Part shown: one piece after another, positions 28,195-29,882 of the stretch | How positions within the stretch are numbered: the stretch's first letter is position 1 | Layout: every line of letters starts with the position of its first letter | NCBI GenBank assembly: GCA_903902705.1 | Contig: CAIUVX010000063.1 | Span: forward strand, 1 to 64,000 | Origin: an uncultured Methylococcales bacterium | GTDB lineage: Bacteria; Pseudomonadota; Gammaproteobacteria; Methylococcales; Methylomonadaceae | Length of the DNA: 64,000 nucleotides | Direction of reading: 5' to 3' | Notes under the pieces: model-generated | What the model saw: only the letters and a program-made list of their open reading frames with translations | Databases searched by the model: none | Told to the model about the DNA's origin: nothing | Program-made: the position numbers and the translations under genes

Positions 28195-29223
28195 ATGTTA
28201 AAAAAACTAAGTTTAGATAATTTCACCACCTTTCAACACGCAGAATTTAATTTTTCCAAAGGGATTAATATTATTATTGGCGAAAATTCTAGCGGTAAAA
28301 GTCATGTATTAAAATTAGCTTATAGTGTCGCTACTGTTTGGGAGCAATGCGGTAAAACGGGCTGGCGTGAACAATTAGTTGAAAAATTGCATGGCGTATT
28401 TGGTATAGATTTATTGCTCGACTTAAAAAATTCTGCAACAAGATCCACAGCAGAAAGATATAATGTCACATTAGAATTTTTTGTTAATCATAAAAGTGGT
28501 AGTCAGGAATTAAGCTTTGATTTTAACAAGCCAGATAATATAACTATTAATGGTAGTGTTCCTCATGCGGCATTGGTGAATAAGCCACTATTTTTTCCTG
28601 CTAAAGAAGTATTATCTATTTTTCCAAACTTCATCAGTTTATACGAAAAATACGAACTATCATTTGATGAAACCTATTACGATTTATGTAAAGCTCTTGA
28701 CAACCCATTATTAAAAGAACCTAATCAATTATTAATTAATAAATTAGAGAAGATTATGGGGGGTAAAATTGTGTTTAGAGGTAATAATTTTTATTTAAAA
28801 ACACAAAATGGTGAGATGAATATTTTTATGGTAGCTGAAGGCTGGCGTAAGTTGGGTATGTTGTCTTATTTAATTGCTAATGATTCGTTAAAAGAAAATA
28901 GTATTCTATTCTGGGATGAACCTGAAACAAATTTAAATCCTAGATTAATCAAGCAATTAGTATCTTTTCTGGTGGAGCTAAGTCAACATAACATTCAAAT
29001 TGTTATTGCTACCCATAATTTATTTTTAATGAAATATTTTGATTATCTTATCGGACAATCAAATAACAAAGTTCCTGCCGCTTTTTTCAGTTTAGTGCGT
29101 ACTGAACAGGGCGTTACTGTAGAGCAAGGCGAACGCTTAAATCAATTAACCACCATTGTTGCATTAGAAGAAGAATTGGCTTTATATGACCAAGAACAAT
29201 CTTTAATGTATAGCCAATGGTAG
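28195..29223 (+). CDS. ABC/SMC-type ATPase of a two-gene cassette (possible defence system)
   Basis: 342 residues. Opens LKKLSLDNFTTFQHAEFNFS, the RecF/SMC-like N-terminus. Walker A GENSSGKS (29-36), a PLFFPAKEVLSIFPNF element (131-146) typical of OLD/AAA_15/AAA_21-like ATPases, a signature-like VAEGWRKLG (213-221), Walker B ILFWDEPE (237-244) and switch His in ATHN (272-275). All parts needed for ATP hydrolysis at a dimer interface are present. The next gene overlaps or abuts it and encodes a putative nuclease. Such ATPase/nuclease pairs are common in anti-phage systems, but this exact pair is not one I can name. The gene is AT-richer than its neighbours. Confidence 0.85.
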   Translation: MLKKLSLDNFTTFQHAEFNFSKGINIIIGENSSGKSHVLKLAYSVATVWEQCGKTGWREQLVEKLHGVFGIDLLLDLKNSATRSTAERYNVTLEFFVNHKSGSQELSFDFNKPDNITINGSVPHAALVNKPLFFPAKEVLSIFPNFISLYEKYELSFDETYYDLCKALDNPLLKEPNQLLINKLEKIMGGKIVFRGNNFYLKTQNGEMNIFMVAEGWRKLGMLSYLIANDSLKENSILFWDEPETNLNPRLIKQLVSFLVELSQHNIQIVIATHNLFLMKYFDYLIGQSNNKVPAAFFSLVRTEQGVTVEQGERLNQLTTIVALEEELALYDQEQSLMYSQW

Positions 29224-29228
29224 AAATT

Positions 29229-29882
29229 ATGACAACTATTTTCACCGAACAAACAGCAGGTGGAAAATTAGTATTTGAATTTTCTGATAAATGGCAAGTT
29301 TGTAAATATGATGAACAGTATTTTTACCAGAAAATTAAAAATCAAAGTTTAAAAGTTGTCGATTTTATAGCATTATCCGATAAAGGATTGTTATTAATGG
29401 AAATAAAATATGTTGTGGCATCCGATGAAAATAGTAAGTTACGTTTTACTATCGATGCAGATAGTGAAAAAATTAAAGCCATAAAATCTCAATTCAGACC
29501 TGAACAATTAAATACCGTCAATATTAGTTCAGCCCGTCCTTATTTAGTTGATGAGGTCAGTAAAAAAATCAGAGATACTTTATTAGGATTGTTTGCTAGT
29601 TATCGCGCACAAGAAGCAATATTATCACCTTATGCGCAATCGCTATTTACTAATCATGAACTACCGATTTTAGTATTACTATTTTTAGAACGCACCACTG
29701 AATTAAATAAAGCAGAAAACTTTAAACCCTTAGCTATTAATTTACAATTAGCTATTGAGCAGAAATTAAGTTTTTTAGGTAATATTCAAGTCGGTGTAGT
29801 CAATAGCTTGACATTACCGCCTGCACTAGAAATAAGTATCTTAGAAAATATCCCTGCTTGTTCTTTAAGAGCTACAGGATAA
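29229..29882 (+). CDS. Putative PD-(D/E)XK nuclease, partner of the ATPase
   Basis: 217 residues from ATG 29229; an ATG at 29217 overlapping the ATPase stop by 7 bases is equally possible. VVDFIALSDKGLLLMEIKYV (about residues 43-62) has the D-(x12)-E-x-K spacing and flanking strands of PD-(D/E)XK enzymes (D45, E58, K60). The remainder is mostly helical and not recognised (FASYRAQEAILSPYAQSLFT, LPILVLLFLERTTELNKAEN). Coupled to the ATPase gene, so the two probably act as a complex. Nuclease activity is inferred from the motif only. Its 3' end overlaps the convergent selO gene by 18 bases. Confidence 0.7.
   Translation: MTTIFTEQTAGGKLVFEFSDKWQVCKYDEQYFYQKIKNQSLKVVDFIALSDKGLLLMEIKYVVASDENSKLRFTIDADSEKIKAIKSQFRPEQLNTVNISSARPYLVDEVSKKIRDTLLGLFASYRAQEAILSPYAQSLFTNHELPILVLLFLERTTELNKAENFKPLAINLQLAIEQKLSFLGNIQVGVVNSLTLPPALEISILENIPACSLRATG

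Follow-up and report, generated by a model that had tools for sequence, protein, structure and literature searches.

Is the AT-rich pair of genes that lies between gspF and selO in a methanotroph genome an undescribed anti-phage system, or does it belong to a system that already has a name? We addressed this question in a 64,000-nucleotide stretch of DNA (hereafter the window) from a genome that groups with Crenothrix-like methanotrophs. The original prediction, made from the letters of the window, described the pair as an ABC-type ATPase (gene A) coupled to a putative PD-(D/E)XK nuclease (gene B), likened it to known defence systems, and ranked it as an undescribed combination. We found that the coupling of the two activities is supported, the fold of B being likely, and that the pair already has a catalogue entry, HEC-02, and is thus not a new system. 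What is new here is the branch of the family that the window copy represents, an extra segment in B, the locations of the pair and the record of its gain and loss.

Two abutting genes between gspF and selO

Both open reading frames are present and abut or overlap, as had been predicted (Table 1). The frame of gene B is open from an ATG that lies 7 nt inside gene A. Translation of B, however, most likely starts at the next ATG, 5 nt past the stop codon of A, because B homologues begin at this second methionine (MTT...). The pair was described as AT-richer than its neighbours, and this was borne out: about 31% GC (A, 31.2%; B, 30.6%), compared with 38.0% for gspF, 43.8% for selO and 41.5% for the window. 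Copies of the pair in relatives are as AT-rich as the window copy. Scans for promoters and terminators returned nothing better than shuffled sequences did. B, on the + strand, and selO, on the - strand, overlap by 18 nt where they end (window positions 29865-29882), and the last codons of B therefore double as C-terminal codons of selO.

Table 1. Coordinates of the gene pair and its motifs in the window
Feature	Coordinates	Strand	Description
Gene A, 342 aa	28195..29223	+	OLD/PtuA-like ABC-type ATPase by prediction; HEC-02 ATPase subunit
Gene B, PD-(D/E)XK-type putative nuclease	29217..29882	+	221 aa from ATG 29217; 217 aa from probable ATG 29229
Walker A GENSSGKS (K35), gene A	28279..28302	+	G29, N31, G34 and K35 invariant in 32 homologues
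ABC-signature-like loop VAEGWRKLG, gene A	28831..28857	+	A214, E215, G216 and K219 invariant
Walker B ILFWDEPE (D241, E242), gene A	28903..28926	+	W240, D241, E242 and E244 invariant
Switch/H-loop ATHN (H274), gene A	29008..29019	+	T273 and H274 invariant
Putative nuclease core D49-x12-E62-x-K64, gene B	29355..29408	+	Invariant in 32 homologues
3' tail of B; in the closest relative (G006), this site retains nothing else of the pair	29809..29882	+	

Gene A is predicted to encode an ABC/OLD-type ATPase head

In a Pfam search, A matched AAA_21 (3.8e-20) and also AAA_15. Every ATPase motif cited in the original prediction is present (Table 1), and in an alignment of 32 sequences the Walker A, the VAEG.RK signature, WDEPE and TH were invariant or nearly so. 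The closest solved relatives by sequence were PtuA, from retron Ec78 and Septu, and then Rad50. An AlphaFold2 model of A (pLDDT 85.5) had PtuA (8eea, E 2e-14) as its nearest fold in the PDB, followed by SMC and Rad50 heads. On the strength of its motifs and its predicted structure, we conclude that A is an ABC/OLD-type ATPase head with a Walker A, a signature, a Walker B and an H-loop.

Gene B is likely a PD-(D/E)XK-type nuclease

The nuclease assignment was originally based on a D-x12-E-x-K spacing in B, which is present (VVDFIALSDKGLLLMEIK). We rejected this spacing as evidence on its own, because it is common in shuffled B sequences: 4.7% of them contain D-x12-E-x-K and about 40% contain a looser D-x9-20-ExK. 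We take the motif to be real because D32, D49, E62, K64 and K117 did not vary in 32 divergent homologues, whose identity to the window protein falls to about 21%.

Searches with profiles gave a fainter signal. B itself had no match in Pfam, and an NCBIfam search with B returned nothing useful. Its homologues had weak profile matches to DUF6661, NERD and pPIWI_RE_REase, and we take the latter two to be PD-(D/E)XK families. When a profile of B was compared with the PDB, the only matches were archaeal Hjc-type resolvases, and these were insignificant (E 0.6-0.8); although E was only 0.82 for Hjc 1gef, its D33, E46 and K48 fall without gaps on D49, E62 and K64 of B. An AlphaFold2 model of B had a pLDDT of 89.4, and its predicted helices and strands (H35-43, E50-53, E58-65, H110-130 and E151-158) are ordered as in the alpha-beta-beta-beta-alpha-beta core. 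A search of PDB folds with this model found no significant match (best E 0.03); the top 50 folds include SfsA, BstEII, Hjc, RecU and HincII, with poor TM-scores for BstEII and Hjc. Structure prediction, suggested earlier as a check on both proteins, thus bore out the ABC head of A and, for B, yielded a confident model whose topology is compatible with the nuclease core, the best PDB match being insignificant. We conclude that B is likely a PD-(D/E)XK-type nuclease; the call is made on its residues, and the fold is likely.

Behind its catalytic core, B also carries roughly 40 additional residues, an insert common to a Methylococcales/Thiotrichaceae subclade. Compared with relatives in the genus by the Nei-Gojobori method, dN/dS was approximately 0.10 for A and 0.20-0.27 for B; for comparison, selO and topA gave 0.04-0.09. 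Because the motif residues are invariant and dN/dS is low, we conclude that A and B are maintained as proteins.

The pair matches the catalogued candidate system HEC-02

Family assignment was made with the models of PADLOC-DB v2.0.0 (2023). A matched HEC-02A (PDLC04213) at 8.1e-90 over residues 1-336 of 342 and HEC-02B (PDLC04146) at 3.8e-88 over its full length, and B matched HEC-02B (PDLC04228) over residues 17-199 with a moderate 2.1e-22. All 32 of the 32 B homologues matched PDLC04145 and PDLC04228. With these matches, and with the ATPase preceding the nuclease as in HEC-02, the pair is, by sequence, a stand-alone copy of this catalogued candidate anti-phage system, and the earlier statement that the combination could not be identified no longer holds. 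The labels HEC-02A and HEC-02B appear to be swapped in PDLC04145, where the small partner is called A, and PDLC04146, where the ATPase is called B.

As cited in later papers (PMC12988326, PMC11411939, PMC12111858, PMC12137116), HEC stands for Hma-embedded candidate and comes from Payne et al. 2024 (bioRxiv 10.1101/2024.01.29.577857). Activity is mentioned for HEC-04, HEC-05 and HEC-06 (PMC12988326, PMC11411939, PMC12111858). The library of papers that we searched contained no anti-phage experiment on HEC-02. Among 63 homologous pairs, HmaB lies directly upstream in 8 and HmaC directly downstream in 6, the setting by which Hma-embedded candidates are defined. Defence neighbourhoods, which had been proposed as a test of the prediction, are therefore seen around homologues; the window copy, in contrast, stands alone and outside any defence island. 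The insert in B and its moderate score likewise set the window copy apart from HEC-02 at large.

The next-best PADLOC families for A were AriA of PARIS (2.7e-21, the best outside HEC-02) and PD-T4-4_A (5e-17), with AbiLi and PtuA also matched, in keeping with the predicted kinship to defence ATPases. We rejected membership in each of the better known systems on account of the partner. PD-T4-4 has a related ATPase, but A is far closer to HEC-02A, and B had no match to PD-T4-4_B at E <= 10. Septu PtuAB, like the retron Ec78 effector, supplies the closest solved fold and sequence relative of A; PtuB, however, is an HNH nuclease, whereas B has a PD-(D/E)XK signature and no HNH or PtuB match in Pfam or PADLOC. 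PARIS (AriAB) and Gabija similarly combine an OLD-family ABC ATPase sensor with a nuclease partner. Their nucleases are of the TOPRIM type, neither A nor B matched TOPRIM in Pfam, A matched only the ATPase parts of the AriA and GajA models in PADLOC, and B did not match their partners.

The combination of an OLD-ABC ATPase with a PD-(D/E)XK nuclease is itself already described. Krishnan et al. 2020 reportedly listed "OLD-ABC ATPase + novel REase" operons, which share the two-gene layout of ABC ATPase and nuclease, in the same order. Inside BREX and Hma loci (the latter named BR there), OLD-ABC ATPases are paired with PD-(D/E)XK, HNH or PIN nucleases, and these pairs are viewed as suicidal backups (PMC12839542). 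The experimentally studied analogue is WonAB of the Vibrio WASA-1 prophage, which couples an OLD-ABC ATPase to a PD-(D/E)xK nuclease and acts by abortive infection; it has been assigned to a wider family in which ABC-ATPase sensors are joined by nuclease effectors, with the Payne preprint cited among related operons (PMC12137116). Going by its published description, WonAB has the same two-gene order and the same motif set as our pair, but WonA is larger, with its motifs at K34, E300 and H333 and a C-terminal extension that binds WonB, whereas those of A are at K35, E242 and H274 and the protein ends at residue 342. With HEC-02 models matched by both proteins and the combination in print (PMC12839542, PMC12137116), the claim of an undescribed system has to be given up.

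The pair is linked, patchily distributed and subject to gain and loss

Scanning a single genome for each species turned up at least 526 relatives of A, of which the best 80 loci were kept. In 72 of these 80, B is the next gene after A, and the two often overlap by 4 nt. The tree of A is patchy across 16 phyla, and Pseudomonadota alone need at least five changes on strongly supported branches. Some of the records are metagenome bins, so contamination may explain single cross-phylum cases, such as the Ignavibacteriales record that falls among Methylomonas. Collections of phages, plasmids and viral contigs held few and distant matches (2 phage records, 3 plasmids and 10 viral contigs).

Comparison of the locus in close relatives, also proposed at the outset, was informative. 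The pair is found in four of the eight genomes of the genus. In G002, G005 and G007 (Crenothrix sp. D3), it lies directly after topA. In G001, the site is empty: the tsaC-like gene that stands behind the pair in G002 directly follows topA. G003 and G002, whose topA proteins share 99% identity, differ here: G003 has other genes after topA. The closest relative of the window genome, G006, with a selO 98% identical to that of the window, has a gspF-selO gap of about 150 nt that retains the last 74 nt of B. We rejected the idea that this site was never occupied, since the remnant is homologous to the tail of B in relatives with the pair at topA; its persistence indicates that the pair was deleted in G006. 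Besides this remnant, the gap (L054, C73) holds about 83 nt absent from the window at this site, including a terminator-like stem-loop (CAGATAATATCC...GGATGTTATCTG) with T's behind it.

The genome that contains the window has a second HEC-02 pair, more distantly related, between cysD and cysN (L055:7862-9652, contig C139), with an ATPase of 382 aa (2e-137 to HEC-02A) and a partner of 213 aa (8e-50 to HEC-02B). It is preceded by a gene of 153 aa, presumably DUF29-like (L055:7408-9652 for gene and pair). G003 likewise has a related pair between cysD and cysN (L019). Since the sites are gspF/selO, topA and cysD/cysN, the HEC-02 pairs of the genus occupy gaps in housekeeping neighbourhoods rather than islands. 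We conclude that the pair is an accessory cassette that is gained and lost, and that the window type occupies two different sites in the genus. What had been named beforehand as speaking against a defence system was not what we found: B has a genuine nuclease signature, the presence of the pair varies, and no housekeeping complex corresponds to it. Taken together, the pair is real, looks functional, is mobile and very probably serves as a defence system.

A model for HEC-02 and its alternatives

We put the probability that this HEC-02 member works as a coupled ATPase-nuclease defence module at roughly 0.7. By analogy with related systems, A would sense and B would execute. The compact OLD/PtuA-like ABC ATPase A would form a dimer over ATP, in which the Walker A of a subunit meets the VAEGxRKL loop of its partner, and would hold B in a complex. 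An infection signal may then change the state of A and so license B, which as a PD-(D/E)XK-type nuclease would cut nucleic acid. The most likely outcome would be that the infected cell is stopped by abortive infection, rather than that phage DNA is cut on entry. In WonAB, both proteins are needed, mutants of the ATP site or the nuclease lose phage defence, and the system acts once phage DNA replication has begun (PMC12137116).

The pair could also restrict DNA directly, with A loading on foreign or broken DNA as Rad50 and SMC heads do and B cutting that DNA so that the cell survives. The fold of A, which matches Rad50, SMC and PtuA heads, would suit such a role, as would the Holliday junction resolvases and restriction enzymes that come nearest to the B motif in sequence, and the homologues embedded in Hma, a restriction-like system. 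We consider direct restriction unlikely, however, because A has no coiled coil for clamping DNA, B has no target-recognition domain, and WonAB shuts down translation and leaves DNA undegraded (PMC12137116). A version of the defence-module reading, overlapping with it, changes the substrate: as in PARIS, the ATPase would keep the nuclease inactive until a trigger frees it to cut tRNA or rRNA instead of DNA. This variant is tentative, with the odds leaning against it. AriA is the ATPase family closest to A outside HEC-02, and WonB, also a PD-(D/E)xK nuclease, is thought to target tRNA or rRNA (PMC12137116). On the other hand, we saw no RNA-binding feature in B, and WonB is toxic only with WonA, which disfavours simple antitoxin behaviour in WonAB. 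Finally, an ABC-head ATPase with a nuclease is typical of repair machines, and the housekeeping surroundings and purifying selection would fit a host repair or maintenance pair (SbcCD/RecF-like) that varies by chance. Such a pair should not be missing from most relatives (B had a match in 6 of 61 genomes), lost with a scar in G006, patchy across phyla and embedded as homologues in Hma defence loci; we therefore rejected a housekeeping repair complex as highly improbable.

Implications and variation within the family

For the defence-module reading, WonAB offers a ready experimental template. HEC-02 itself gains a methanotroph branch and a documented history of gain and loss, and because copies can also occur away from defence islands, island-based surveys would miss these. 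The Methylococcales/Thiotrichaceae branch might be a functionally distinct variant of HEC-02, characterised by the extra nuclease segment of about 40 residues and by a bare 1.7-kb two-gene cassette that enters housekeeping gaps rather than Hma or defence islands, but we regard this as doubtful. Elsewhere in the family, at L024:1138-3045 and L023:1135-3051, the ATPase is fused to an extra N-terminal domain of about 110 residues (MDYWLVRAKWG...) that is possibly EVE-like, and a B homologue still comes next.
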